The notes below the pieces were generated by a model. That model had not been told where the DNA came from and ran no database searches. It was given only the letters and a program-made list of their open reading frames with translations. Positions 22,463-42,836 of a stretch of 64,000 nt of DNA are shown here, in pieces. The stretch is from positions 26,663,061 through 26,727,060 of the forward strand of contig NC_084804.1 of NCBI RefSeq assembly GCF_963583255.1, written 5' to 3'. The position numbers were made by a program, and so were the translations under genes. This DNA comes from Pyrus communis (taxonomy: Eukaryota; Streptophyta; Magnoliopsida; Rosales; Rosaceae). Position 1 is the first letter of the stretch. Every line of letters starts with the position of its first letter.

Positions 22463-24748
22463 ATGGCCCGAACTAAGATCGATGTGTTCAAAGGCACTTT
22501 AACAATGGAATTTGATGGAGAAGTGATTGATTTTAATATTTCTGAAACCATGAGATTTCCTAATGATGATCACTCATGTTTCTTTATTGATATTCTTGAT
22601 TCTTTGGCGCAGGCACATCTTGATCAATTACGTGAAGATGCACTTAAAACGGTCCTTACAAATGGCATAGAAGTGATGGATCAAGTGGCTACCACCATAG
22701 CACCCTACGGCACACACATGCAATATCATGCCATGGCCTTTGATGATGAAGTAATTGAGACCGTGGCTGCCCTAGAGTCCTTGCCACGACTCAATGATAA
22801 GTCCCCTAGTCCAATGTCCATTCCAATTTCAACTAACAAGTTGCTTCCTTCTATATAACAACCATCTACCCTTGAGCTTAAACCGTTGCCAAAGCACTTG
22901 AAGTATGTGTTCTTGGGCGAGTAAGACACATTGCCCGTTGTTGTAGCATCATCACTCACGGCACAAGAAGAGGAGAAATTGGTGAGGGTTCTCAAAGAGC
23001 ACAAGACGGCCATTGGGTGGACTTTGGTCGATATCAAGGGCATAAGCCCTACCACATGCATGCACCGAATTCTCATGGAAGAAGGAGCCAAACCATCATG
23101 GGAAGCCCAACGTCGACTCAACCCACCAATGATGGAAGTTGTGAAGAAGGAAATCATCAAATTACTTGATTGTGGCGTCATCTATCCTATCTCGGATAGT
23201 TGTTGGGTTTCACCGGTCCAAGTAGTTCCCAAGAAGTCCGGAGTCACGGTGGTGAAGAATGAAGAGAATGAACTTGTGCCCACACGCATTCAAACCGGTT
23301 GGAGAGTGTGCATTAACTATAGGAAGCTAAATGCCGCAACAAGGAAAGATCACTTTCCTTTGCCATTCATTGATCAAATGCTTGAAAGGTTAGCCGGTCA
23401 TTCCTTTTATTGCTTTCTTGATGTTTATTCGGGTTATAATCAAATTGTCATAGCGCCGGATGATCAAGAAAAGACCGCCTTTACTTGTCCATTTGGTACT
23501 TTTGCATATCGTCGTATGCCATTTGGTTTATGCAATGCACACGCCACCTTCCAACGTTGCATGGTAAGTACATTCTCGGATTATGTTGAGAAAATAATTG
23601 AGGTGTTTATGGATGATTTTAGTGTGTTTGGGGACTCATTTGATGATTGTTTGCATAATCTCACTTTAATCTTGAAAAGATGCATGGAAACTAACCTTGT
23701 TTTGAATTGGGAAAAATGTCATTTTATGGTGAAACAAGGCATAGTTTTGGGTCATATCATCTCTGAAAAAGGAATTGAAGTTGATAAGTCTAAAATAGAT
23801 TTGTACGTTACTTACCCTCTCCTACTTTTGTTAGAGAGGTTTGTTCTTTTCTTGGCCATGCAGGATTTTATAGGCGATTTATCAAGGATTTTTCCAAGAT
23901 TGCACAACCCCTATGCCGTCTCCTACAAAAAGAAGTGGCTTTTGAGTTCAACGAGGAGTGTGAGAAGGCATTCAAGCATCTCAAGGACATGCTTACCACG
24001 ACACCAATTATCCTACCACCAGATTGGACGTTGCCTTTTGAGCTAATGTGTGATGCATCCGATTATGCAATAGGGGCTGTTTTGGGCCAAAGGAAGAACA
24101 AGTAACCACATGTCATATATTATGCTTCCCGGACCTTAAATGATGCTCAATTAAACTACTCTACCACTGAAAAAGAATTTCTTGCCGTTGTATTTGCTTT
24201 AGATAAGTTTCATTCATATTTACTTGGCACTAAAGTGATTGTATATTCTGACCATGCAGCTTTAAGGTACTTATTCACCAAAAAGGAGGCCAAACCAAGG
24301 CTCATTCGATGGATGCTTCTTCTCCAAGAGTTTGACATTGAAATTCGAGACAAGAAAGGGAGTGAGAACGTGGTTGCTGATCATCCAAGTCATTTGGTGT
24401 GCAATGAGGACTCCTTACCCATCCAAGAGACATTCCCTGATGAGCAATTGTTGTCCATTAATGTAAGTGAACCTTAGTATGCCGATTTGGTGAACTTTTT
24501 GGTGTCAAAACGTGTTCCAAGCACCATAGCTAAGCACCAACGTGATAAACTTAAAAAGGAGGCATGGTTTTATGTATGGGATGACCCATATTTGTGGAAA
24601 TTTTGTGCAGATTAGATTGTTCGTCGTTGTGTGCATGATTGTGAATTTAATTCAATTCTAACCTTTTGTCGCACTTATGCATGTGGTGGACATTTTGGCA
24701 CACAACGTACTGCCCTTAAGGTGTTAGAATGTGGTTTTTATTGGCCTA
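22463..24748 (+). pseudogene. Element A pol: protease end, RT, RNase H, integrase start (broken)
   Basis: Continues A after solo LTR K. Protease C-part [16 protein letters not shown] (22465), linker, RT with [20 protein letters not shown] (about 23308), FLDVYSGYNQ (about 23417), [19 protein letters not shown] (about 23486) and FMDDFSVFG (about 23607). RNase H has [16 protein letters not shown] (about 24045) and [12 protein letters not shown] (about 24241). The integrase zinc finger starts and is cut at CGFYWP (24748). Stops at 22856, 22921, 24103, 24475 and 24613 and a frameshift near 23812 make it dead. The next integrase codons are at 39988, beyond insertion B. Confidence 0.93.
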
Positions 24749-24766
24749 TGGCGCCGTTGCCGGGGA
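24749..24766 (+). other. PBS of B1, forming the outer left end of insertion B
   Basis: Perfect tRNA-Asp complement TGGCGCCGTTGCCGGGGA directly after target duplication GCCTA, with no LTR before it. Its 3' part opens a perfect 10-bp hairpin, GGATTAGCAA (24764-24773) with TTGCTAATCC (24776-24785). Confidence 0.9.
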
Positions 24767-24873
24767 TTAGCAACTTTGCTAATCCTTTGTCTTTATTTTT
24801 ATATTTTGTTTTTCGTGCATTCTTATTTCAAATTCTTAGTTTGTTTGTTTCCTTGTTTTTTTAGGTACTGTGT

Positions 24874-26045
24874 ATGACTCGTAGCTCTCGGCCTATTATA
24901 GAGAACATCTCCGACTTTGACGGTGATTTTGAACGCACTTTGAGGAGAACGAGGAGTCAACAAGAGCCACCACAACCTCCACCACAACCTGGGCTTGAAG
25001 AAGACGAAGTAGGTGTAGAAGAAAAGCCCACGGATCAGATTTTTGAAGAAGAACAAGGCATGGCAGCAGATAATAGAACCATCAAGGAGCTTTCGGCCTC
25101 GGGTTTGGATAATGCATTGCCTCTTTGTATCCAATACCCCACGGCTGCAGAGGGGAAGACTGAGGAATTTGAACTCAAATCCAGTTTGTTACACCATATT
25201 CCGAAGTTCCATGGCTTGTCTATGGAAGACCCCAACAAACACTTGAAGGAGTTCGAGGTGGTTTGTTCAAGCATGACCCCCGTCAATGTGGATGGGAGTA
25301 TATTGAAGATGAAGGCCTTTCCATTTTCACTTATGGACAAGGCCAAAGATTGGCTTTACGAACTAGCCCCGGGAACTGTGACTTCGTGGGAGAGTATGAA
25401 GCGTGCTTTCTTGGAGAAATTCTTCCCTACTTCGAGAGTGATTCTCCTACGGAAGAAAATTAGTGGTATTCAACAGAATCATGGTGAGACATTCCCGGCT
25501 TATTATGAGCGCTTCAAGGGCCTTGTAGCTTCATGTCCTCAACATCAAATGAAGGAGGAACTTCTCCTTCAATATTTCTATGAGGGCCTCCTTCCTATCG
25601 AACGTCAAATGCTTGATGCATCAGCGGGAGGAGCATTGGTGGACAAAACACCAAGGGATGCCAAGATTCTCATAGCCAACCGAGCGCTCAACGCTCAACA
25701 ATATGAAGGAGTGGGCCAAAGGGAAGCCCCACGGCAACAAAGTGTAAATGAGGTGAGTGCTATTTCTGAAATTCAATCACAACTTGCTAATCTTAATTCT
25801 CTTGTTTCTCAGGTTGTGATTGGTCCAAAAGCACAAGAACACCAAGTTTGTGGCGTGTGCTCAATTCAAGGGCATCCATCCGACAAGTGCCCTCAACTAA
25901 TCGAGAATGGTGGGTGGGAATCTGCCAATGCAATTGGTTTCCAAGGACAAAATCAAAACAACCCATACTCGAACACTTACAATGCCGGATGGAGGGACCA
26001 TCCAAACTTCAAATGGAGGGAGCCACAACAAGCTGCCCAACAAGG
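24874..26045 (+). pseudogene. B1 gag, C-terminally truncated and fused to integrase
   Basis: Encodes the first 390 residues of Athila-type gag and matches B2 except for one residue (V129 against E129). Acidic Pro/Gln-rich N-part (30-60), gag core with [17 protein letters not shown] (about 148-164), CCHC knuckle C326-C329-H334-C339. The capsid-like part would assemble particles and the knuckle bind RNA. At QAAQQGG the sequence passes out of frame into integrase at a shared CCAACAAGGAGG and stops at 26067. Protease, RT, RNase H and most of integrase are missing. Confidence 0.88.
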
Positions 26046-26597
26046 AGGGATTGGAGCTTACGTTTAGATGATGCACTGTGGGCATATCGTACGGCATACA
26101 AAACACCCATTGGGATGTCACCTTTTCGGCTCGTCTATGGTAAGCCATGTCATTTGCCCGTAGAGTTAGAGCACAAGGCACATTGGGCCGTGAAGATTTT
26201 CAACATGGACATAGATGCAGCGGGAGTTCATAGGAAGCTCCAATTGAATGAACTTGAGGAAATTCAGAATGAAGCCTATGAGAATGCCCGGATGTACAAA
26301 GCCAAGACCAAAGCATTCCATGATAAAATGATTCGAACCAAGACCTTCACAGTTGGGCAGAAAGTGTTACTTTTTAACTCTCGCCTACGTTTGTTTCCTG
26401 GTAAGTTGCGTTCTAAATGGATTGGCCCGTTTGTTGTTACTAATGTTTTCCCTCATGGTGCAGTGCAAATCAAAAGTTCAAGGACGCAGCAAGAATTCAA
26501 AGTGAATGGGCATCGATTGAAGCCCTATTACGAGATGTTTGAGGAGCATGTCGTGGAGGAGGTACCCCTCCATGCCGTGGAACCTAGTCAAGCTTAA
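26046..26597 (+). pseudogene. B1 integrase C-terminal part
   Basis: Starts at [19 protein letters not shown] and runs to the natural pol end ([12 protein letters not shown], stop 26595-26597). It contains the C-terminal GPY/F module ([16 protein letters not shown], about 26400-26450). It has no catalytic core and no start codon in frame with gag, so it is not expected to be made. About 47 bp at its start are also present, inverted, at the end of B2 (33664-33711). Confidence 0.88.
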
Positions 26598-27255
26598 ACG
26601 GAGGTACCGTCCGGCTGCAAGACGTAAAAGAAAGCGCTTCGTGGGAGGCAACCCATGCATCCGAATAGAGAAGAACTTGGAAACCCCTTTAAGAGACTTA
26701 TTTTTATTCCTTTCTTTTTCTTTACTGCCTTTACTTTGCTTTCTTTCTCGTATTTGTTTATTTGCTTGCTCTGTTGTGACTTTCTGCTTAAAACATTGAG
26801 GACAAAGTTTGATTTAAGTGTGGGGGGGTAAACAATTTGTATTTGCATGAATTTCGTGGGATTTATTCACCTATCACTTAGAATGTTGTTTCTTGCTGTT
26901 TTAAGCGTTTTTAGAGTATTTTAATGTGTTTTATAGTTTCTTGGTATAAAACTCCGAAAATTTGATAAAAAAAAAAAAAAAAAAAAAAAATCTTTTGAAA
27001 AACCCAAAAATATGTGTTTTTAGAGTCATTTGAGTCATTTTGGTGTTTGTTTGTTTCTTAGCGCTACTTGGGAGGCAACCCATGCATTCAACAAAGGAAG
27101 ACTTAGAAAGCACTCCAGATCCAGATTTCTAAAAAACTTTTCTCTTTGTTGCTATTTCGTTTCTGCCTTGTTAGGTTGTTTAGTTGTTATTGTTTGTTTG
27201 TTTATTAATTGTGTGAGTCTATGATTGTAACATTGAGAAAATGTTTGATTTATTG
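26598..27255 (+). other. B1 3' UTR, proximal part with a duplicated block
   Basis: Holds the standard UTR landmarks: GGAGGCAACCCATGCATCC (26644), TTGAGGACAAAGTTTGATTTAA (26797) and a PPT-like AAGTGTGGGGGGGTAA (26817), then an A run (26967-26990). A second GGAGGCAACCCATGCATTC begins at 27071. The segment about 27116-27255 is repeated at 29276-29416, so the antisense-gene module that follows is flanked by direct repeats of UTR. Confidence 0.8.
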
Positions 27256-27287
27256 ATAGGCACTGCTAAACAAAGAAAGATGGTGCT

Positions 27288-27995
27288 TCACAAAGGTTGT
27301 TTGCTTGAGGCCCCACTACGTGGCTTTACTCTTGGAGCAGAAGGCGTAGGAACAGAAGGCATCGGAGCGGAAGGCGTAGGAACAGAAGGCATCGGAGCGG
27401 AAGGCGTAGGAACAGAAGGCATCGGAGCGGGAGGCATCGAAGATAGAGCATTCCAGGCCTCAATACTTGGCCAAGCGCTGGATGAGCCAGGAAAAAGGTG
27501 CCTCTGGAGGAAAGACGAAAACCTTTGACGGTCACTGTGAATCCGACCTTCAGACTCTTGCAGCTCATCAAGCTTCCTCTTCATGCCCGTCGAATAGTTG
27601 TTTGCAAGCACGTGCAAACTTCTATTCTCATACTTCAGCTGCTGGATCTCCTGCTTGAGACTTTCCACCTCTGCCATCAATGATTCCACCTGACGGGAGC
27701 GGGCAAGCAGGCGTTGGCCCATGTTGGACACAGAACTCGCACACTGAACACTAAGTGCGAGGGACTCTTGAACGGCCAACTCATCGGACCGTCCTGACAG
27801 CAGCCTACTATCTTTCGGAGTGAGGAGGTTCCTAGCTACTATTGTAGCTGTTGTGGCGTCCTGCATCACGGAGTCTTCACCTGTGAGAGGACCGTTAGAA
27901 GAAAAGAAAGAAGGGCGCCATACGTTACCTTGACGAGGTGCGCCCGTATCACTGCTAAGGCTCAATTCCAAGCTAAGGTTCGATGAGTTTGCCAT
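27288..27995 (-). CDS. Antisense additional ORF, coiled-coil protein (235 aa)
   Basis: Unrecognised protein encoded against the element, between pol and the 3' LTR. It starts MANSSNLSLELSLSSD; the start is supported because J has the same methionine context. Residues about 100-160 (RQVESLMAEVESLKQEIQQL onward) have leucine heptads typical of a coiled coil. A Pro/Ser-rich tail contains the repeat APMPSVPTPS three times, from a 30-bp DNA repeat at about 27340-27430. No transmembrane segment or enzyme motif is visible. The J homologue (49780-50319) is collinear over about 180 codons without an indel, about 8% different in amino acids by eye, which suggests coding constraint. Extra sense or antisense ORFs at this position are known in plant Ty3/gypsy elements. 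Function unknown. Confidence 0.72.
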   Translation of the reverse strand: MANSSNLSLELSLSSDTGAPRQGNVWRPSFFSSNGPLTGEDSVMQDATTATIVARNLLTPKDSRLLSGRSDELAVQESLALSVQCASSVSNMGQRLLARSRQVESLMAEVESLKQEIQQLKYENRSLHVLANNYSTGMKRKLDELQESEGRIHSDRQRFSSFLQRHLFPGSSSAWPSIEAWNALSSMPPAPMPSVPTPSAPMPSVPTPSAPMPSVPTPSAPRVKPRSGASSKQPL

Positions 27996-28002
27996 TTTCT
28001 TT

Positions 28003-29275
28003 CAAAAGTGTTCAAAGAGAAGGGATGGAGTTAAATTTCAAAGGGCCGGAGTCGATTTTCAAGAATGGGAATTCTTCAGAGTGTGTGTGTTGGGGTGTTT
28101 GATAGCTCTATAAAAAGCCAAGGCGACGCGTCCCCCGATTCAAAGAGCCAGATTTTCCGGCGTAATTTAGGCGACGCTTTCTCGGCTTTTCAGAAACACG
28201 TGGAGGCCATCATCGCAACTACACCTCTTTAGCCGACAAGCGCAAAGTTCGGCGACGCTTTCTCTGCTTTTCAGAAAACGCGTGCAGCTTTGTCAAAAGG
28301 AGCCGCATCCGCACTACTACGTGTCGTTCAGAAAGCAAAGGGGCGTCGTTCAGAAATCGAAGGGGCGCCTGCTCAGAAATCGAAGAGGCGTCGTTCAGAT
28401 ATCGAAGAGACATTTGTCGACAAGGGTAAAAACACAGTACCACCACTTGATATTTTCTCTATATATGTCGACCTTCGTCTTTTATAGCAAGGCAAACCTG
28501 AAGAGAATGCCCAACTCTCCCTCACCTCTGAGGGCGCACTCCCAGCAAAGCCTTTCGAAATACTCAATTCTTTCTTCTTCCCCAAAGATGATACCAGATG
28601 CCTGGAGTACATATGACCCAGGAGGAAGCAGCACAACAAATACATGTGCTGATTCATTCACCGCTTCTTCAAAAGCAAAGGTATCTCATATCATCAAGGT
28701 CAAAAGCAAAAGTATCTCATATCATGCTCTTTCCCTGTCTTTTTCTTTGTCCTTGTTCTTACTCGCATGGCAAAGTAAAAGAAGCAATCAGCCGGCACTT
28801 GGAGTCAGTCTTCCGATCTGGAGCCAACTGCCTGGGATCTATTCCTGATTGCTTACCTAGCGTTGCTCTCGAGTAGTCATCTTCAACGGTTGATACACTT
28901 CCGGAGAAGGGACCACTTCTGCAAAGGGGAGCGAGTAAGGCAAGTGAAAATGATACATTGAAGCATGTGGAGACAAGCATAGGCTGAGTTATCCTCCAAC
29001 CCTTTTCAATACGAATTGGAAAGATTGAACAAAGAAACAGACCAAAGGGGTAAGCTCAGACCTTCGGGGAAGACCAAAAGAATCCTCCAGCCCAGTAGCA
29101 CAAAGGAAAATCAACAAGTGGAGGAGACCAAAAGATTCCTGCTGCCCAGTTCAAGAAGTAGCACAAAGGAAAATCAACGATGGGCAGAAACCAGTTCAAG
29201 AGTAAGCCTGTGGAATCACAAAGATCAAAGCCTCAATGCAATTACCAAACAGAAGATGGAATTTATACTCTATAA
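28003..29275. other. Captured non-retrotransposon segment upstream of the antisense ORF
   Basis: About 1.3 kb found only in B1 and J, not in the UTRs of A, C or I. Near 28171-28283 a block GGCGACGCTTTCTC...CAGAAA occurs twice about 80 bp apart. At about 28324-28412 are four degenerate units of about 23 bp (core TTCAGAAATCGAAG). TATCTCATATCAT is repeated near 28682 and 28718. A 60-70 bp unit (ACCAAAAGAATCCT ... AAGGAAAATCAAC) is present twice at 29080-29180 but once in J. Plus-strand frames here differ between copies, so I do not call them genes. It may be a host promoter or gene flank taken up with the antisense ORF. Confidence 0.6.
28105..28202 (-). promoter_or_regulatory. Putative promoter of the antisense ORF (TATA-like and G-box)
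   Basis: On the minus strand a TATA-like CTTTTTATAGAG (28117-28106) lies about 115 bp before the ATG, and a G-box CACGTG (28197-28202) about 85 bp further up. Both are conserved before the J copy (50432-50443 and about 50564). The same AT-rich box read on the plus strand is CTATAAAAAG, so transcription in the opposite direction is also possible. Confidence 0.5.
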
Positions 29276-30279
29276 CCAGATTTGCGTCTCTAAACTCTTC
29301 TCTTTGTTAATTACATTATGCCATGTTTAGTATGTTTAAGTGCTTTTTGTGTATTTACTTATGCTTTGTGTGAATCTATGCTTAAAACATTGAGGACAAT
29401 GTTTGATTTAAGTGTGGGGAGGTAACTAAGTATATTTGATGCAAATTCGTTGGATTTTATCACCTATCACTTCACATGTTGTTTCTCACTGTTTTAAAAC
29501 TGTTTTAGTGTGTTTTGTCTTAAAAATTCGAAAATCCCATAAAAATTTGAAAAATTGTTTTGAAAAACCCAAAAAGAGTTGTTTTAAAGTTGTTTTTGTG
29601 TGTGTGTTTGTGTCTTAGGATACCTTCCAACACAATGATAAGGATTTGGTTTGTAATTGCATGACTGTTAAAAAGAGTTATAAACATAGAGAAAAGTTTG
29701 ATTTACTCTTGGTATATGCTTGGTTATGGTTATAATGTATGACTTCACATGCAATCATAAAAGAAAATTTAGTTTTTGTAACATGCCTGAAGGAAGGAAC
29801 TCAAACAAATGCTACAACCCTGAGAGACTTGAGCCTATAACGTTCTTTGGAGAGTATAATCTGTGATTTCTTGTTTTCTAAAATCGTTGCATGATCTCAT
29901 TATTCTTTGCTTGGTTACTGCTTAGAAGGCGTTTCATCATATAGTTCCAAATGCTAGAACTCATGCCCATTTCATTCAAAGCATGTTATTGATTTGCATA
30001 ACATATATCAAGATGAAGTTGTGTAGTTGCCACCATAGCCAAATAGCCTCGCTTCCCATATTTCGTATATGTTGTAAGTTTTTCCCCCGTTGAGCCATGT
30101 TAACCCATGTTCTTTGTTAACCCACTTTATCTTCACCTAACCTAGAATATGACCGTCCTTACCCTTGTTCTTAAAAGATAGTGAGCATAACTTAATTGAA
30201 TTCCTTTTGAGTTACATTATGAAAGAAAATAAGTGTGGGGGAGAGAATGTTTAAGTGTTTTTGTTTTGAGATTCAAAAG

Positions 30280-30319
<40 letters not shown>

Positions 30320-31069
30320 GAATAAGTGATTGAAGAAAGGTTCCAAAACACCAATTCTGGGCGTAAATTGTCTAAATTCTCCCTTTTTGTTCAAAAGTTG
30401 AGTTTTCATTCAAAAGTGAATTCTAAGTTGATTCAAATGCATGCTCACTATTTCTTTAAGAACCTTTGTTTTCCATATCCCTTCTTTGTTATCCACATAC
30501 CCCAAGCCCCGTTACAACCCTTGACTTCTATCTTGAGTGTTGTGTATTTCAATTTGTGGAGTTTGAACTTGGTATGAGCTTATGGTGTCACTGGTTCTCG
30601 CGTCTAAGTAGTAGCATTCCATTCATGAGATCATATCTAAACTTGATTATTAACTCCAGAATTTGCGTTCTTTGTGATACATATATGTGAATGTCGTTTT
30701 CATGTTTACATCAATCTTCTCACATATGACTAGATTAGGGTGTGTAGTTAGAAAATCTGAGTAAAAAATTGAGTGCATATCTTGAAAGAAATTGAGCAAA
30801 TTCTCTAAGGCATGTTACTACATTCAAAACATGGTTTTAAATGCTTAATTGTGAACTAGTATATGGTGACTATGATTAAGAATGTACTTAAGTGTGAAGA
30901 TGACTAAAATCTGTGAGAATGATGATTTTTAACATGTCATGTGCATTGGAAATCCCTAAGACGGTTGTTGGAAGGTTTAGGTTGTGTTTTACGTGTTTAG
31001 TGTCGTTTTGTTTATTCGTTTTTATTCTGTTTTGCTCGAGGACTAGCAAAAGCTAAGTGTGGGGGTATT
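29276..31069 (+). other. B1 3' UTR, distal part, with PPT
   Basis: Homologous to the UTRs of C and A. TTGAGGACAATGTTTG (29390), PPT-like AAGTGTGGGGAGGTAA (29410), a second PPT-like AAGTGTGGGGGAGAG (about 30231), a 40-base A run (about 30271-30311), GCTCGAGGACTAGCAAAAGC (31033) and the true PPT AAGTGTGGGGGTATT (31055-31069) next to the LTR. No gene seen. Confidence 0.85.
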
Positions 31070-33647
31070 TGATAGGAGCATATTCATGCGACTTAAATGG
31101 CTTGTTCTCGTGTATTTACGTTATGTTTCTCTCGTTATTTTAGTCCTTTATGCTTCTTTTGTGTGTTTTCAGGTTCTAAGGGCCTAGGGAGCAAGTAAGT
31201 GCATTTTGAGGCCATTTGGAGCATTTTTGGGCATGGATTGGATAGCTTATCCATGGAGCCAAGAGGATGGACGAATTTGAAGGCCTTGTATGCACTTGAA
31301 GACACAAAACAATGGCCCTAACCCAATCACATAACACATTATGCCATACAAACCAACCTATTTTAGGCCCATTCTATGTACTTAAACCCTAGCCCTTTAA
31401 ACTAGTTCATTTATCACTTATCAAACCATTCACTTATCACTCACCACATATCATTCACTTATCACTTAACATATCATTCATTTATTTCACTTCCATACTC
31501 CTCTTAATTCCACATGCATTCTCACACATGCACATCATTCACTCACATTTCCACCATTCATTCTTTATTCCTTTCCAAACATCTCACATGCATTTCTTCA
31601 TTATTTCCTAACCCTACATGCATTATTTATTGCATCTTCACATGCATTCACACACACTTTACACATTCAAACCGTGAGCTCCCATTCCTATATGCCATTT
31701 TCAGATTTCCACCCACTAACCTAGTCATCAACACATGCACTTCCACCTTTCATCCACAATGATTCATGATTCATTCACTTTGCATCCTTTAATTCAATCA
31801 CATACTTTCCCATTGTATAATACATCCACATGCATCTTTAACCAACAAACATTACAATCACATGCATTCACACACCATCTTCCCTTTTACAAAACACATT
31901 GCCGTGCCTTCCCTTCACAATTTCAGCTTTCCTCCTTTTAATTCCACATGCATTCACTTCATCATTACACCACCACTCATTCTTTAAATCCACATGCACA
32001 TTCAATCATTCATTCAAGCCCCCTTGTGCCATGTTTCACCCTTTGTTCCCACCTATCACATGCATCATCATCAAATAAACTCTAATTGCCGTGGGTTCCC
32101 TTTGCTCCCCTTATGCAATTCCAGTTTTCACATGTGTCCTAGCTGTTTTTCCATCATTCCTCCACACAAATGCTTAAACAAACAGCCATATGTTCCCTCC
32201 ACTACCCCTATAAATACCCTAGCATTCATTCATTCACTCCCCATTCAATTCATATCTCATATTTCCATTCACAACACTTCACACAACACAAATACACATC
32301 CATTGCCGCAATTCCCCTTCCATTTTCTGTGCAGTTTTTCTCCTTCATTGCAGCCACTATCCAACCACTTCCCATCCCTCCAAAACACTTCACATAATCC
32401 CCAAAGCTCACCTTAGACCTTGTGCTACAACAACGAGGAAGAAAAGAGTGCCTAAACGTTCATACAATTCAAGTTTGAGTTGTTGGAATGTTTAGGTGTT
32501 TCTTTGATTTCAAAGTTTAAATTTAATTCTCTTTGTTTTGTACGTATGAGAAAGGAAGAGAAGAGTGCCTAAACGTTCATACAATTCACGTTTGAGTTGT
32601 TGGAATGTTTAGGTGTTTCTTTGATTTCAAAGTTATGAGGAACTAAACCCCCTTTAGCTAGGGGGTGATTCGAAACTATGTTTATATTTGCAATTTGAAT
32701 TGATTACGTTTGGTTGGAATTTCATAAGTTGTGGATTCAATTCGTTTAACTGTTTGATTGATAACTTATTTATGTATGTTCATTGAGATTGCAAGCTTAA
32801 TTTTCATGCATAAATATGACGCTAGAATATAAGTGAATTTCACCTAATCGTTATGAACTTATATTCACAAGTAGCGGAGGTTGCTTATAAACAATCGCGT
32901 TAAACGAATTCTTGGCATAAGTTTCATGCGTATTCCATAGTAACGAATGCCTCGTCGATGTTTATGATTTCCGTTGAACTTAATGATCTTTGTTGAATGT
33001 CTCTATCATGCGTATTCCATAGTTAGGGACTTTGATTAAGAATAATTTGGTTGTAATGCGTATTCCATTCAATCCAACAAATTTAGGGAAATCTGAAAGT
33101 TAATCTAAGCGGATCTAATTAACTTGGAGCACTGAGTTTCACAACTTATCGAAAGACCAACTGAGAATCAATTTTGTTTGCAAGTGTAACATGTGTGGAG
33201 AAGAACCCCTTGGCTATTCCATCATCCATATTTTCATCACATTCATATTTACATTTTGCCTTTAATTATATTCTGTCTTTTTAATTTAATATCGTCCAAC
33301 CACAATTCCCCCCCCCCTATTTTGTTAAGTCTTAATCATTCGTATTTGTTTTATTTTTGTATCTTTAAGCTTTTGGAGTCATAAACAATTGCAAATTCGT
33401 CTAAATCAAGTTCTAGCTTCTATTTGAGTCAATTTGATTGTTTTAGACAATTTGAGTTTTTCAAAGCCTTTCTGAGTCATAGTAGTCTTGTTAAGAGTAT
33501 GTTAATTTAGTTTTTATGTTTTTAAGTCAATTTAGAAGGTTTTAGCAAGCCCTCCTAATCCCCGGTCTAGAACGATCCCTCACTTATCCATTCTACTACA
33601 ATTGTCCAACGAGGGTTTAATTTGAGTGTCAAGTAAATCTCGCACCA
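31070..33647 (+). mobile_element. LTR of B1, full length, followed by a PBS piece
   Basis: 2578 bp from TGATAGGAGCATATT to CTCGCACCA. It has a PPT on its left, as a 3' LTR should, but spacer AATTT and a PBS piece on its right, as a 5' LTR would. RY-rich U3 (31511-32060), TATA 32209-32216, the 46-bp dyad twice (32451-32496, 32568-32613). Open frames at 31514-32416 are U3/R sequence and not genes. Confidence 0.9.
32209..32216 (+). promoter_or_regulatory. Putative TATA box of the B1 LTR
   Basis: TATAAATA in the same context as at 8360. It lies inside the 1379-bp stretch that is missing from the B2 LTR. Confidence 0.6.
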
Positions 33648-33652
33648 AATTT

Positions 33653-33666
33653 TGGCGCCATTGCCG
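33653..33666 (+). other. PBS fragment at the head-to-head junction
   Basis: TGGCGCCATTGCCG, the first 14 bases of the tRNA-Asp PBS with one G-to-A change. It merges into reversed integrase (TGCCGTACGATATG) through the shared TGCCG at 33662-33666. Confidence 0.85.
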
Positions 33667-36600
33667 TACGATATGCCCACAGTGCATCATCTAAACGTAA
33701 GCTCCAATCCCTCCTTGTTGGTCCAACGGTTTTCTCCAAAATTTGTTTTATTTCTCGGTTAGACACCTCGGCTTGGCCATTTGTTTGAGGATGGTAAGGT
33801 GTGGAGACCTTATGGTTGACATGGTACTTTCTTAGCAACGCCTCAATGGTCCGATTGCAAAAGTGAGACCCTCCATCACTTATGATTACTCTCGGCATTC
33901 CAAACCTAGCAAAAATGTTAGTTTTCACGAAATCTGCAACCACCTTAGAATCGTTAGTACGGGTGGCTTTTGCTTCCACCCATTTAGAAACATAATCAAC
34001 GGCTAGCAAGATATAAGTGAAACCATAAGATGGAGGGAAAGGGCCCATGAAATCAATGCCCCAAACATCAAAAATTTCAACATTAAAGACAGGGGTTTGC
34101 GGCATTTGGTCCTTGGTACCTATGTTACCCATTCGTTGGCAACGATCACAAGACATACAAAAGGTTCTAGCATCCCTAAATATAGTCGGCCAATAAAAAC
34201 CACACTCTAAAACCTTGAGGGCAGTGCGTTGTGTGCCAAAATGACCACCACATGCATATGTGTGACAAAAGCTTAGAATTGAGTGAAATTCATAATCATG
34301 CACACATCTACGTATAATTTGATCTGAGCAATACTTCCACAAATAAGGGTCATCCCAAACATAGAAACGTGCATCATTTTTAAGCTTATCACGTTGGTGC
34401 TTGTTTAGTTCATTTGGAATTTGTTTAGCCACCAAGTAATTCACTAAATCTGCATACCATGGTTCACTTACCTCAATGGAAAGCAGCTGCTCATCGGGAA
34501 AAGTTTCAGGGATAGGTACGGCATGTTCATGCTCCTCATGGATCATTGGGCTTAAATGGTCAGCCACTACATTCTCGCTTCCTTTCTTATCCCGGATTTC
34601 AATATCAAATTCTTGAAGAAGAAGAATCCAACGGATAAGCCTCGGCTTTGCTTCCTTTTTCGTGAGCAAGTACCTCAAAGCTGCATGATCAGAATAAACG
34701 ATTATTTTAGTACCAATTAAATATGAACGGAATTTATCTAAAGCAAAAACCACAGCTAGAAGTTCTTTTTCCGTCGTGCAGTAGTTCAATTGGGCATCAT
34801 TGAGAGTCCGAGAGGCATAGTATATGACATGCGGCCGCTTGTCTCTTCTTTGTCCTAGAACAGCTCCTAATGCATAGTCGGATGCATCGCACATGAGCTC
34901 GAACGGAAGGCTCCAATCTGGAGGTACAATAATGGGGGCTGAGACTAGCTTCTCCTTGAGTTGGTTAAATGCCGAATTACACTCTTCATCAAACTTGAAT
35001 GTCACATCTTTTTGAAGCAATCGGCAAAGAGGGTTGGACATCTTGGAGAAGTCCTTGATAAAACGCCTATAGAACCCTGCATGGCCAAGAAACGAACGTA
35101 CCTCTCTAACCGAAGTAGGAGAGGGTAAGTGACGTACAAGGTCTATTTTTGATTTATCTACTTCAATTCCTTTTTCTGAAACAATATGTCCTAAAACTAT
35201 ACCTTGTTTCACCATAAAGTGACATTTCTCCCAATTCAAGACAAGGTTAGTTTCAACACATCGTTTCAAAATTAAGGTCAGATTATCCAAGCAATTATCA
35301 AATGAACTCCCAAATACACTGAAATCATCCATGAAAACCTCAATGATCTTTTCAACAAAATCGGAAAATATACTTACCATACACCTTTGGAAAGTGGCCG
35401 GTGCGTTGCATAAGCCAAATGGCATGCGACGATAAGCAAATGTTCCAAAGGGACATGTGAATGTGGTCTTCTCTTGATCATCCGGGGCTATCACAATTTG
35501 GTTATATCCAGAGTATCCATCAAGAAAACAGTAAAAAGCATGACCGGCTAACCTTTCGAGCATCTGGTCGATGAATGGCAAAGGAAAGTGATCTTTCCTA
35601 GTCATGGCATTTAGCTTCCGGTAATCGATACATACTCGCCATCCAGTCTGAATGCGTGTAGGCATGAGCTCATTCTCATCATTCTTGATAACAGTTACTC
35701 CGGACTTCTTGGGAACGACTTGAACTGGAGAGACCCAACGGCTATCGGAGATAGGGTAGATCACTCCGCAATCCAAAAGTTTGATTATTTCCTTCTTCAC
35801 CACTTCCATCATCGGAGGGTTGAGATGCCGTTGAGCCTCTCGAGTTGGTTTAGCCCCCTCCTCAAGAAGTATACGGTGCATGCATGTGGTAGGGCTTATT
35901 CCTTTAATGTCGGCCAAAGTCCACCCTATGGCCGTTTTGTGCTCTCGCAGCATCCTCACAAGCTTCTCCTCCTCCATTGCCGTGAGACTTGATGAAATGA
36001 TGACGGGCAATGTTTCGCCTTTTCCCAAAAACACATACTTCAAATGGTCCGGCAACGGCTTAAGTTCAAGCGATGGTGCCTGAACAACAGAAGGTAGCAT
36101 CTTAGTGGAAACTGAATTTGAAAGTGAGAGTGGAATCTTACCATATTGTTGTGGCAATGACTCAAGGGCTGCCACAACCTCAATTATTTCTTCACTAGAA
36201 CCCATTGCAAAGAATTCCTCCTCCTTGCCGTGGCCTTGCATTGGCCCAAATCCTTCATTTTTGCGCTCTATGGCCCTAGTGATGGTTGTTTCCAGGGCGT
36301 CCTCGTTCAATTCTTCAAGGTATACCTGCGCCAAAGAATCGATAACATCAATGGAAAAACAAGAATGGTCATCAACGGGATATCTCATAGTTTCAGAAAT
36401 ATTAAAATCAATCACTTCCCCATCGAATTCCATTGTCAAGGTGCCTTTGTATACATCAATCTTCGTTCGGGCCGTCTTCATGAATGGCCTACCAAGGAGA
36501 ATCGGCAAAGATGTAGAATGGGCTGAATCCTCCATGTCTAGGACGTAGAAATCAGCCGGAAAAATTAAATGGTTCACCTGCACAAGCACATCCTCCAAAA

Positions 36601-38659
36601 CTCCTTTTGGATACGCGTTAGAACGATCAGCCAATTGTATAATTACACCATCTTGTTTTAATTCACCCAAATTCATAGATGCATAAATAAAATAAGGCAT
36701 GACATTTATGGATGCACCTAAATCAAGCATGGCATGTTCAAAACGATTATGTCCAATTACACAAGGAATCGTGAAACTACCGGGGTCTTTGCACTTGGTA
36801 GGCAGTTTACGTTGCAAAACAGCGGACACATTCTCGCTTACCTTCACTACCTCTTTGTTTGCCCTTCTTCTCTTTGTATTGCATAGGTCCTTGAGGAATT
36901 TAGCATACTTTGGAACCTGTTTGATTGCATCAAGAAGCGGTATGTTCACTTGCACTTTCCGGAACGTTTCAAGAATGTCCTTCTCGCTTTCTTCCTTTTT
37001 TTCTTGCATGAACCTGCGAGGAAAAGGTACATTGGGCAGATTAGGACGTGAAGTACATGAGTTTAAATTACCTGATTTGGCCGAGTTAGGGTGATCTGCC
37101 TCAGGTTGTGTCGTCTCTTCATCTACTTTCTGGGCAGATTTGGGATTGTTTGGCTCGGTCCCAACTTCTTTTCCACCCCTTAGGGTGATGGCCTTGGCGG
37201 ATTCGAATCCTCCCTTTGGATTGACTGTGGTTGAGCTAGGAAGTTTTCCTTGCTCTCTAATCTGTCCAAGGAACTCAGAAATCTGCCCTATTTGTTTCTT
37301 CATATCCGTCATCTCCTTCTCGTTATTTACTATCCGGTTGTTTTGATTTTGCAACCCCTGCGAAATAGAGGTTAGTAATTGCATAGCTTGATCACTTTCC
37401 AAGGACGTACCTGAATGAGATGATGTCGAAGGTTGTTGGGGTGCATACGGCTTGGAATAAAAACCATGGGGGTTTGGCCTAAATCCTCCTTGTTGGGCAG
37501 CTTGTTGTGGCTCCCTCCATTTGAAGTTTGGATGGTCCCTCCATCCGGCATTGTAAGTGTTCGAGTATGGGTTGTTTTGATTTTGTCCTTGGAAACCAAT
37601 TGCATTGGCAGATTCCCACCCACCATTCTCGATTAGTTGAGGGCACTTGTCGGATGGATGCCCTTGAATTGAGCACACGCCACAAACTTGGTGTTCTTGT
37701 GCTTTTGGACCAATCACAACCTGAGAAACAAGAGAATTAAGATTAGCAAGTTGTGATTGAATTTCAGAAATAGCACTCACCTCATTTACACTTTGTTGCC
37801 GTGGGGCTTCCCTTTGGCCCACTCCTTCATATTGTTGAGCGTTGAGCGCTCGGTTGGCTATGAGAATCTTGGCATCCCTTGGTGTTTTGTCCACCAATGC
37901 TCCTCCCGCTGATGCATCAAGCATTTGACGTTCGATAGGAAGGAGGCCCTCATAGAAATATTGAAGGAGAAGTTCCTCCTTCATTTGATGTTGAGGACAT
38001 GAAGCTACAAGGCCCTTGAAGCGCTCATAATAAGCCGGGAATGTCTCACCATGATTCTGTTGAATACCACTAATTTTCTTCCGTAGGAGAATCACTCTCG
38101 AAGTAGGGAAGAATTTCTCCAAGAAAGCACGCTTCATACTCTCCCACGAAGTCACAGTTCCCGGGGCTAGTTCGTAGAGCCAATCTTTGGCCTTGTCCAT
38201 AAGTGAAAATGGAAAGGCCTTCATCTTCAATATACTCCCATCCACATTGACGGGGGTCATGCTTGAACAAACCTCCTCGAACTCCTTCAAGTGTTTGTTG
38301 GGGTCTTCCATAGACAAGCCATGGAACTTCGGAATATGGTGTAACAAACTGGATTTGAGTTCAAATTCCTCAGTCTTCCCCTCTGCAGCCGTGGGGTATT
38401 GGATACAAAGAGGCAATGCATTATCCAAACCCGAGGCCGAAAGCTCCTTGATGGTTCTATTATCTGCTGCCATGCCTTGTTCTTCTTCAAAAATCTGATC
38501 CGTGGGCTTTTCTTCTACACCTACTTCGTCTTCTTCAAGCCCAGGTTGTGGTGGAGGTTGTGGTGGCTCTTGTTGACTCCTCGTTCTCCTCAAAGTGCGT
38601 TCAAAATCACCGTCAAAGTCGGAGATGTTCTCTATAATAGGCCGAGAGCTACGAGTCAT
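33664..38659 (-). CDS. B2 gag-pol polyprotein, intact to within integrase
   Basis: One uninterrupted frame of 1,666 element codons on the minus strand (plus ten codons of fused PBS/LTR, stopping at 33629). Start [15 protein letters not shown]. Gag core about 120-260; CCHC knuckle C326, C329, H334, C339; protease DLGAS at 646-650; RT about 940-1210 with D1047 ([10 protein letters not shown]) and F1109-M-D-D1112; RNase H with D1258, E1297/E1299 and D1324; integrase zinc finger H1466, H1473, C1501, C1504; catalytic D1536, D1595, E1631 (D-x35-E spacing kept). The GPF C-terminal domain is absent because the frame is cut after ALWAYRTA. Gag would form particles, protease mature them, RT/RNase H copy the RNA. 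The enzyme core is intact, but without the integrase C-terminus and with a damaged LTR the copy is probably not autonomous. Confidence 0.95.
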
Positions 38660-38766
38660 ACACAGTACCTAAAAAAACAAGGAAACAAACAAACTAAGAA
38701 TTTGAAATAAGAATGCACGAAAAACAAAATATAAAAATAAAGACAAAGGATTAGCAAAGTTGCTAA

Positions 38767-38784
38767 TCCCCGGCAACGGCGCCA
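38767..38784 (-). other. PBS of B2
   Basis: Perfect minus-strand tRNA-Asp complement, five bases inside the B2 LTR end. The adjoining hairpin stems are 38748-38757 and 38760-38769. Confidence 0.9.
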
Positions 38785-38789
38785 AAATT

Positions 38790-39987
38790 TGGTGCGAGAT
38801 TTACTTGACACTCAAATTAAACCCTCGTTGGACAATTGTAGTAGAATGGATAAGTGAGGGATCGTTCTAGACCGGGGATTAGGAGGGCTTGCTAAAACCT
38901 TCTAAATTGACTTAAAAACATAAAAACTAAATTAACATACTCTTAACAAGACTACTATGACTCAGAAAGGCTTTGAAAAACTCAAATTGTCTAAAACAAT
39001 CAAATTGACTCAAATAGAAGCTAGAACTTGATTTAGACGAATTTGCAATTGTTTATGACTCCAAAAGCTTAAAGATACAAAAATAAAACAAATACGAATG
39101 ATTAAGACTTAACAAAATAGGGGGGGGGAATTGTGGTTGGACGATATTAAATTAAAAAGACAGAATATAATTAAAGGCAAAATGTAAATATGCATGTGAT
39201 TGTAATGTTTGTTGGTTAAAGATGCATGTGGATGTATTATACAATGGGAAAGTATGTGATTGAATTAAAGGATGCAAAGTGAATGAATCATGAATCATTG
39301 TGGATGAAAGGTGGAAGTGCATGTGTTGATGACTAGGTTAGTGGGTGGAAATCTGAAAATGGCATATAGGAATGGGAGCTCACGGTTTGAATGTGTAAAG
39401 TGTGTGTGAATGCATGTGAAGATGCAATAAATAATGCATGTAGGGTTAGGAAATAATGAAGAAATGCATGTGAGATGTTTGGAAAGGAATAAAGAATGAA
39501 TGGTGGAAATGTGAGTGAATGATGTGCATGTGTGAGAATGCATGTGGAATTAAGAGGAGTATGGAAGTGAAATAAATGAATGATATGTTAAGTGATAAGT
39601 GAATGATATGTGGTGAGTGATAAGTGAATGGTTTGATAAGTGATAAATGAACTAGTTTAAAGGACTAGGGTTTAAGTACATAGAATGGGCCTAAAATAGG
39701 TTGGTTTGTATGGCATAATGTGTTATGTGATTGGGTTAGGGCCATTGTTTTGTGTCTTCAAGTGCATACAAGGCCTTCAAATTCGTCCATCCTCTTGGCT
39801 CCATGGATAAGCTATCCAATCCATGCCCAAAAATGCTCCAAATGACCTCAAAATGCACTTACTTGCTCCCTAGGCCCTTAGAACCTGAAAACACACAAAA
39901 GAAGCATAAAGGACTAAAATAACGAGAGAAACATAACGTAAATACACGAGAACAAGCCATTTAAGTCGCATGAATATGCTCTTATCA
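38790..39987 (-). mobile_element. LTR of B2, internally deleted, outer right end of insertion B
   Basis: 1198 bp. Matches the B1 LTR in reverse over its first 798 bp (39190-39987) and last 400 bp, lacking the counterpart of 31868-33246 (1379 bp). The joint lies in a shared CAT (CACATGCATATTT). The lost piece contains the TATA box, the presumed R region and both 46-bp dyads, so this LTR should not act as a normal promoter. It ends at the target duplication GCCTA. Confidence 0.9.
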
Positions 39988-41010
39988 GCCTACAGTCTTT
40001 AAAGATGCTAGAACTTTTTGTTTAACTTGTGACCGTTGTCAAAGAATGGGAAATATAGGTGCAAGGGACCAAATGCCACAAACACCCATCTTTAATGTTG
40101 GAATTTTTGATGTTTGGGGCATTGATTTCATGGGCCCTTTCCCTTCTTCGTTTGGTTTCATTTACATTTTGCTTGTGGTTGATTATGTCTCAAAATGGGT
40201 GGAAGCCAAGGCCACCTGTACTAATGATTCTAGAGTTGTTGCAGATTTTATCAAAACTAACATCTTTGCTAGATTTAGGATGCCTAGAGTGCTTATTAGT
40301 GATGGAGGGTCTCACTTTTGCAATCGTACCATCGAGGCATTGCTCAAGAAGTATCAAGTCACACATAAGGTTTCCACACCTTATCATCCTCAAACCAATG
40401 GCCAAGCCGAGGTGTCTAATAGAGAAATCAAGCAAATCTTGGAAAAGACCGTTGGGCCAACAAGAAAAGATTGGAGCTTGCGTTTGGGGGATGCATTGTG
40501 GGCTTATCGAACGGCCTACAAAACACCCATAGAGATGTCACCATTTCGGCTAGTCTATGGCAAGCCATGCCATCTCCCTGTGGAGTTAGAACATAAGGCT
40601 CATTGGGCAATCAAGACATTCAACATGGACATAGATGCGGTTGGAATGCATAAGAAGTTGCAATTAATGAACTTGAAGAGATTAGGCTCGAAGCGTATGA
40701 GAATGCTTGCATTTACAAGGAAAAGACCAAGGCTTTCCATGACAAGATGATCCGAAGCAAAACATTCTCCATAGGGCAAAAAGTTTTACTTTTTAATTCT
40801 CGCCTTCGTTTATTTCCCGGTAAGTTACGTTCTAAGTGGATTGGGCCCTTTGTTGTTACTAATATTTTTCCATATGGCGCAGTTCAAATCCAAAGCTTGA
40901 GGAATGACCAAGAATTCAAGGTGAATGGGCATCGTTTGAAGCCCTATTATGCAAATGTTGAAGGGAAGGTTGTGGAGGACATCACTCTCCATGTCGTGGG
41001 CTCCACTTGA
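39988..41010 (+). pseudogene. Element A integrase, continued (frameshifted)
   Basis: Resumes A integrase exactly where 24748 left it (CGFYWP then TVFKDAR). Zinc-finger cysteines in CLTCDRCQ (about 40027), catalytic D in WGIDFMGPF (about 40124), D in ISDGGSHF (about 40296), E in [11 protein letters not shown] (about 40410). A one-base deletion near 40663 shifts the frame (LQLMNLKRL in place of LQLNELEE). The last part reads on at 40747-41010 with the GPF module and stops at 41008. Confidence 0.93.
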
Positions 41011-42836
41011 GGCTAAGAAGAATGTTCGTCCGGCTGCACAACGTTAAAGCAAGCGCTTCTTGGTAGGCAACCCATGCATTCAACTAGAGAGGATTTGGGC
41101 AATTCAACAATTCATTCCACACAATCAGATTTGCGTTCCTAACTCTCTATCTCTTTATTGTTTTTAATTCGGCTTGTTAGTTAGTTTATGTTGTTTGTTT
41201 GAATGTAAGTCTTTGTTTGAAACATTGAGGACAATGTTTGATTTAAGTGTGGGGGGGGGGGGTAAACAAGTTGTTTTTGCATGATTTTTGTGGGATTTTA
41301 TCACCTATCAGTTCTAATGTTGTTTCTCACTGTTTTTATGAGTTTTTAGTGTGTTTTGAAGTGTTTTTATGTGTTTGTTTGTGTCCTAGGGTACCTTCCA
41401 ACACAATGATGAGGATTTGGTTTTAAATTGCATGACTATTAAAGAATGTTGTAAACATGGATGGAAGTTTGATTTATGCTTTGGTTTATGCTTGGTGATG
41501 GTTATAGCTTATGAATTCACATGTAATCCCAAAAAGAAAATCAGTTTTTGTAACATGCTTAAAGGAAGGAACTCAAACTGACGCTACATCCTTGAGAGAC
41601 TTGAGCCTCTAACGTTCTTTGGAGAGTATAATCTGTGATTTCTTGTTTTCTAAAGTCGTTGCATGATCTCATCATCCTTTGCTTGGTTGCTACTTGGAAT
41701 GCATTTCATTATAGTTCCAAATACTAGAACTCATGCCCATTTCATTCAAATCATGATATTGATTGCATAACATACAATAAGATGAAGTTGTTTAGTTGAG
41801 CCAGAGCCAAAAAGCCTTATCCTTTTTCATATGTATTGTAGGATTACCCATTTTGAGCCTTTTCAAGCCTATTTTCTTTGCTAACCACACCTTCCTTACC
41901 CTTGTTCTTAAAGGATAGTGAAGCATGACTTAGAATGAACTCCTTTTGATCAATTTATTGCAGAAAATGAGTGTGGGGGAAGATAGTAGGGCACGTCAAA
42001 GAAAAAAAAAAAAAAATTTCGTGGAAAAACAAAAAGAAAATAGAAAAGTGGTAAAAAGAAAGAAAAAGAGTTGAAAAATAAGTGAGAATGAACTCACAAG
42101 TGTTGGTTGTTGAAGAAAGGGTCCAAAAAGTTTGAATTTGACCCTAAATGTTGCATGAATCTTCCCTTGTGTTTAAAAGTTGATTTCTGCCATCAAAAGT
42201 GAGTTTAAGTGTCAATTTCATTACTTTGCTTCCTATGGTTTTAAGAACCTTTGTTTATCCTTTACCCTTCTTTGTTAGCCAATACCCTTAGCCCCGTTAC
42301 AACCCTCAACTTCTATCTTGATGTTATGTGTTCAATATGTGGAGTTTGAATTTGGTATGAGCATATGGAATCACTGGTTCTCGTTCTAAGTAGTAGCATT
42401 CCATTCATGAGATCATATACATATCATTGTCATAAATCCAGAAATGCTTTCTTTGATATAACATATGTGAGTGTTAGTCTTCATATTTAAATCAATCTTC
42501 TCACATATACCTAGTGTAGGGTCTGAAGTTAGAAAATCTGTGTGAAAATAAAGTGCATTCTAGTAAGGAATTGAGGGAATTCTCTAAGGCATGTTACTAC
42601 ATTCAAAACGTTATTTTAGTTGATTAAATGTGAACTAGTAAGTGGTAACTATGGCTAAGTGTTTGCTAAAGTGTAAAGAAAGCCAAAGACCGTGGGAATG
42701 ATGCTTTTTAATGTGTCATGTTCATTGGAAATCCCTGAGGTGCATGTTGGAAGGTTTAGAATATGTTTTGTTTTGTTTGTGGTTTCTTTTGTTTTGTTTT
42801 GCTCGAGGACTAGCAAAAGCTAAGTGTGGGGGAATT
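41011..42836 (+). other. Element A 3' UTR and PPT
   Basis: Standard UTR without the antisense module. GGCAACCCATGCATTC (41067), TTGAGGACAATGTTTGATTTAA (41226) followed by a PPT-like AAGTGTGGGGGGGGGG (about 41245-41261), a second PPT-like GAGTGTGGGGGAAG (about 41968), then the true PPT AAGTGTGGGGGAATT (42822-42836) at the LTR. No gene seen. Confidence 0.88.

Follow-up and report, generated by a model that had tools for sequence, protein, structure and literature searches.

A composite Ty3/gypsy insertion in Pyrus communis that begins at a tRNA primer-binding site, with three further insertions ended in this way in the same assembly

In a 64,000-nt stretch of Pyrus communis DNA (the window), a 15,239-bp retroelement insert (24749-39987) was found between two copies of GCCTA, with base 1 of a primer-binding site (PBS) as its left end, no long terminal repeat (LTR) ahead of it, and the U3 terminus of an LTR as its right end. 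The insert is a defective product of its Ty3/gypsy family and not a normal member, and it was probably formed (probability about 0.8) by one integration event of an aberrant plant Ty3/gypsy cDNA, in which integrase accepted the 3' terminus of the minus strand at the PBS end. Searches of the 487-Mb, 29-contig assembly yielded three further insertions ended by a PBS. The features of the insert are as follows.

24744..24748, no strand: left GCCTA copy of the target-site duplication, from flank comparison and the rejoined frame
24749..24766, plus strand: PBS TGGCGCCGTTGCCGGGGA, base 1 as the left end of the insert, without an LTR in front
24749..26048, plus strand: PBS, leader and gag start of unit 2, with 2 differences in 1299 positions from unit 1
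26037..26048, plus strand: joint of the gag-to-integrase deletion, 12 shared nt CCAACAAGGAGG
26049..31069, plus strand: integrase end of unit 2 and 3' region to the polypurine tract (G-rich, approximately 31057-31069)
31070..33647, plus strand: LTR1, 2578 bp, TGATAGG...CACCA
33648..33666, plus strand: 3' end of unit 2, made up of the AATTT spacer and PBS nt 1-14, with a single G-to-A difference at 33660
33662..33666, no strand: inversion joint J, 5-nt microhomology TGCCG
33662..38784, minus strand: unit 1, with PBS (38784-38767), gag-pol and integrase broken off at J
38790..39987, minus strand: LTR2, 1198 bp, its U3 terminus as the right end of the insert
39988..39992, no strand: right GCCTA copy, from flank comparison and the rejoined frame

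A first-pass annotation of the same DNA had claimed an exact GCCTA duplication around the insert, the restoration of an integrase sequence on its removal, and a PBS base and an LTR terminus as the two ends, and all of these held. The GCCTA repeat is exactly 5 bp, as the adjacent bases are unlike on both sides and no extension is possible; a match of 5 bp between two random positions of the window has a chance of about 0.0015. When the 59-bp and 60-bp flanks were fused with a single GCCTA, 39 stop-free codons of a conserved integrase stretch were obtained, in a frame closely resembling the integrase of the inserted unit itself. The PBS, which is presumably of the tRNA-Asp type, stands at the left end, where an ordinary Ty3/gypsy element has an outer LTR, and the remaining three exact PBS copies in the window each lie behind an LTR end and AATTT. 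The 18-base left junction occurred once in the assembly. There are no N letters in the window, and no tRNA genes were found in it.

The first-pass annotation had described one retroelement insertion and had missed its composite form. By self-comparison, the insert was resolved into two units with their LTRs, oriented head to head, and a simple reading with one LTR was rejected on this ground. The arms form a 1.3-kb inverted repeat (24749-26052 versus 38784-37482, 99.8 % identical), and further inverted matches were obtained between 31070-31867 and 39987-39190 and between 33236-33666 and 39200-38771. Unit 2, on the plus strand, runs from the PBS through the gag start, the deletion into integrase, the 3' region, the polypurine tract, LTR1 and AATTT to 14 nt of PBS, and thus bears PBS sequence at both ends, the 3' copy having 14 nt versus the usual 18 nt. 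Unit 1, on the minus strand, runs from LTR2 at 39987 through AATTT and the PBS at 38784 to a 1676-aa gag-pol frame, which is broken in integrase at J; the open frame (38659-33629) continues through J. The TGCCG at J is common to the PBS copy and the integrase sequence; when inverted joints were drawn at random within the window, 0.7 % of them shared at least 5 nt. A genome-wide search gave a single occurrence of the joint sequence.

Assignment to Ty3/gypsy was based on the order gag, reverse transcriptase, RNase H and then integrase in the polyprotein (Pfam Retrotrans_gag 148-240, RVT_1 1004-1159, RNase H 1224-1351, H2C2 1459-1510 and rve 1531-1624), together with LTRs of the form TG...CA, a PBS and a polypurine tract. 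Among the best 120 of 802 relatives of the gag-pol frame, the named matches with at least 95 % coverage were from Malus and Prunus (72-80 % identity), and one ENA protein was 98 % identical.

LTR1 and LTR2 differ at 3 of 798 positions in their first block; in the second block (431 columns) there are one difference within the repeat at the edge of the deletion, one homopolymer of unequal length and the G/A difference of the PBS at 33660. LTR2 is shorter by approximately 1.38 kb, the gap lying between 11-nt imperfect direct repeats (31857-33246 versus 39190-39200). Most of the segment absent from LTR2 was found in other LTR copies of the window, so the deletion was assigned to LTR2, and a nested insertion in LTR1 was rejected as the cause of the length difference. 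The two LTRs of this one insertion are therefore unequal, LTR1 retaining the segment that LTR2 has lost. Since the differences in the gag arms and LTRs are few, the insertion looks young, and with a rate of 1.3e-8 substitutions per site per year they would correspond to an age of the order of 0.1 million years.

The genome search proposed in the first-pass annotation, for junctions with unrelated DNA immediately ahead of the PBS and a 5-bp duplication, was done with the exact 18-mer, of which 3669 copies are present in the assembly. Copies without the letters customary ahead of the PBS were selected: 6 sites with C or G in front, 2 with an A that is not part of AA and 12 with a T that is not part of TT. 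All 20 sites were read at the junction. PBS-terminated insertions with 5-bp duplications were found at 4 of the 20 sites, i.e. the window locus and those designated C12, C13 and C1; each has a border at PBS base 1, a 5-bp duplication and no LTR ahead, as expected of integrated cDNA from before the second-strand transfer. The other 16 sites comprised 13 ordinary LTR spacers with variant letters (L035-L038, L049, L052-L055 and L057-L060, judged by eye from 70-80 bases) and three other rearrangements (L056, L051 and L061). The three further insertions are as follows.

C12:10417795-10425055: 7261 bp, duplication GTAAG, from PBS to LTR end CTCGCATCA, with a single 2314-bp LTR
C13:15409137-15423916: 14,780 bp, duplication ATTAG, of another LTR family, with an LTR of approximately 1444 bp ending CTCTATCA
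C1:28617132-28626656: 9525 bp, duplication TTGGT, with PBS, internal region, 2122-bp LTR, AATTTTGCCAAAATT and inverted LTR

The C12 insertion lies in pol of a sister element, and its rejoined flanks restore the pol frame. The C13 LTR is approximately 78 % like the LTRs of L035 and L038 over parts of its length, and the best LTR match in the 3 kb upstream is only 22 nt. At C1, the inverted LTRs form a palindrome of 2122 bp with 0 differences, and the empty site was restored by comparison with positions 41988-42228 of the window. At C12 and C13 the end opposite the PBS is a U5 end, as an absent second transfer would leave in its simplest form; in the window and at C1 it is a U3 end that follows an inversion.

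The number of four PBS-terminated loci, from 20 closely examined sites among the 3669 exact copies, is a lower bound. Flanks ending in AA accounted for 195 sites by subtraction (203 less 6 and 2) and stood outside the 20; the 29 of them that were viewed all ended in AAAA, with an ordinary-looking spacer behind apparently one LTR family. Flanks ending in TT accounted for 3454 sites, also by subtraction, and reading of these was confined to the copies in the fetched stretches. Simple arithmetic on even or AT-rich base use puts the share of random flanks covered by the search at approximately 80 to 88 %, so a few further loci may exist, and PBS copies with mutations would raise the count again.

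As a control, the first T of the PBS was replaced in the query, by which 7 sites were obtained, 5 of them ordinary LTR spacers and the other two L063 and L066, with a flanking duplication demonstrated at none of the seven. L063 (C1:28247104, approximately 1500-1565) begins with DNA in which no LTR was recognised; a PBS (first T to C) and 10 nt of leader come next, and after them the terminal 35-40 nt of an LTR and another PBS. It is a possible fifth PBS-ended insertion, or one with its end a base off, and it weakens the control for base 1. At L066 (C4:20821333, approximately 1480-1520 in reverse complement), an inverted U3 terminus of an LTR (CTATCA) is fused to a PBS without its first T, and this could represent the joined ends of a cDNA with PBS and U3 ends.

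At L056 (C9:14361516, approximately 1448-1520), an LTR and AATTT are followed by 18 nt of PBS, 37 nt more of a tRNA-Asp copy and the PBS again. This arrangement reads as a genomic fossil of primer tRNA read-through, in which the plus strand would have copied the tRNA beyond the point, after 18 nt, where it usually stops. Opposite tRNA position 58, a methylated A in many tRNAs, the copy has A where the canonical tRNA-Asp sequence would give T. As the tRNA copy is fused exactly to PBS base 1, the joint shows the minus-strand end and supports it independently. L051 (C2:24980995) and L061 (C13:10710332), initially candidates, were set aside, for an antisense LTR follows the PBS in both; they were judged by eye and are less certain than the four accepted cases. 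The joint between the PBS 18-mer and the antisense LTR lies apparently at a shared CCGGGGATT(A/C)G in each, also by eye, and both look like inverted PBS-LTR template switching.

The following course is proposed for the window insert. Minus-strand synthesis, with an internal jump from gag to integrase, would have stopped normally at PBS base 1, leaving ...GGCGCCA-3'. The plus-strand end, instead of pairing with the PBS complement, would have joined plus-sense integrase sequence through the 5-nt microhomology, and the joined strand would then have been copied back to the U3 terminus, giving a composite with one U3 end and one PBS end, of which integrase would have taken the latter for an LTR end. 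tRNAs end in CCA, and CA is the dinucleotide that integrase uses on LTR ends; the minus strand therefore ends in CCA-3' and carries a CA of the integrase type. Because this 3' CA would meet the terminal requirement, the PBS end would be usable by integrase, and the tRNA-derived CA would have had a role in recognition. The inverted U5 terminus of this subfamily (TGGTGCG) and the PBS end (TGGCGCC) are alike at 5 of 7 bases, a likeness which is suggestive only.

The termini of unit 2 (PBS base 1 on one side, LTR, AATTT and 14 nt of PBS on the other) fit a cDNA caught before the second-strand transfer. The interpretation of the first-pass annotation, a failed second-strand transfer, is supported by the three further loci, which include two simple PBS-to-LTR insertions and bring the total to four, and by a unit 2 that ends in PBS sequence twice; it needs refinement in that the transfer appears misdirected rather than merely absent, since the window insert is a composite with an inverted second unit. 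In the window the end of the plus-strand strong-stop DNA would have gone to an integrase template, whereas at C1 it would have turned back onto its own LTR; the order of the strand transfers is likewise one that we infer.

Several points weigh against this account. All of the evidence is from one assembly, and the joining step by integrase is deduced from its product. To make the right half of the composite, a plus-sense template that includes a complete LTR is required, and hence two or more molecules or additional switches. In integrase, J is no more than 60 nt away from the gag-integrase deletion (26037-26096 versus 33662-33721), the integrase of unit 1 stopping 60 nt beyond the point at which the deletion of unit 2 enters integrase, and no model here fully explains this coincidence. 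The duplications at C12, C13 and C1 can be read one to three bases longer, with letters shared by element and host; the choice of 5 bp follows the TG/CA rule, and at C12, where lengths of 4 to 7 were tried, several fitted. For C13 and C1, the search for the right end used CA plus the candidate 5 bp, known beforehand, so that the match of CA and five bases in a fetched stretch is not striking by itself; the match at C13 fell on an LTR end like those of L035 and L038, and that at C1 on an LTR terminus separately found by BLAST. C13, whose empty site had no sister copy among the sequences compared, is the weakest case.

The alternative that survives best, to which we give an appreciable but clearly minor chance, is that two cDNAs of one particle were co-integrated, one contributing its PBS end and the other its U3 end at target positions 5 bp apart, and that the host then joined the two remaining loose ends at J by microhomology end joining. 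The 5-nt microhomology and the broken-off integrase end are what end joining would leave, and several RNAs per particle have been inferred for tobacco Tnt1 (PMC2923131). However, the 60-nt proximity of J and the deletion would then be chance, the perfect LTR palindrome at C1 is more easily made by fold-back copying than by end joining, and the C12 and C13 loci require no second molecule. Integrase still uses a PBS end in this alternative, and it is the origin of the composite alone that differs.

An assembly error among similar elements, or a sequencing artefact of the fold-back kind, is improbable. Assembly is difficult where repeats are inverted or copies have high identity, and the evidence is that of an assembly; yet the window is free of N, a clean 5-bp duplication and a restored frame are unexpected from an artefact, and three other loci agree. 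Original presence of a left LTR, lost later by deletion, inversion or gene conversion, is accorded very little probability: plant LTR elements are often rearranged, and a 1.3-kb inverted repeat lies inside the insert, but the loss would need to have begun exactly at the duplication and ended exactly at PBS base 1 at four separate loci. Equally slight is the chance that a broken cDNA was end-joined by the host and acquired its 5-bp repeat fortuitously, for although aberrant one-ended integrations are described for human immunodeficiency virus (HIV) and avian sarcoma-leukosis virus (ASLV) vectors, these show host deletions, large duplications or other rearrangements in the portion of the source consulted (PMC5041404), whereas the four loci here have 5-bp repeats (three readable slightly longer), with a chance of about 0.0015 for the window junction, a figure not applicable as such to C12, C13 and C1, where the ends were sought over a range.

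An integration event of an aberrant cDNA, as preferred here, resembles in part some known systems. Solo LTRs and LTR-LTR recombinant complexes also depart from the LTR number of a normal element, but they are formed after integration. We know of no solo LTR or recombinant complex that gives a PBS at a duplication border. LTR-LTR recombinant complexes are without a flanking duplication (PMC1950507). In the template-switching complexes of Triticeae, rice and maize (Sabot and Schulman 2007, PMC1950507), as here, a composite LTR-retrotransposon insertion arose by aberrant reverse transcription and a single event was argued from one flanking 5-bp duplication, which likewise surrounds the whole composite in the window. 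In those complexes the two outer LTRs are complete and very much alike, a third LTR lies inside, and mutually inverted units are not described, whereas the present insert has head-to-head units, two inverted LTRs, and a PBS at its left outer end where no LTR stands. HIV-1 proviruses with asymmetric LTRs, two proviruses with inversions being counted there, also have unequal LTRs, proposed to result from internal deletions of the minus strand and unusual plus-strand strong-stop transfer; they differ in that mostly the 3' LTR is deleted, and a PBS end is not described in the sections of that report at hand (PMC9278108). The one-end integrations of ASLV and HIV vectors share one abnormal viral DNA end, but according to the part of the report consulted the bad end is joined by host enzymes, without a clean repeat of the integrase type (PMC5041404). 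No report of PBS-terminated insertions was found from titles and the beginnings of abstracts in the literature on PBS or one-LTR integration and inverted or self-primed forms, with limited coverage of subscription journals, and a prior description is possible.

These insertions suggest that integration of LTR retroelements would need not two LTR ends but just a terminal CA, supplied by the tRNA primer, and this poses a direct question for end recognition by integrase. They add a class that annotation by paired LTRs would be expected to miss or to call truncated, and the state before the second-strand transfer, normally invisible in genomes, becomes countable from assemblies. Since tRNA primers end in CCA, it may be proposed, tentatively and at rather less than even odds, that every tRNA-primed LTR retroelement has a second, built-in integrase-competent end at its PBS, and that genomes would accumulate PBS-ended insertions, including head-to-head forms from plus-strand fold-back, as a readout of the frequency of failed second-strand transfer.

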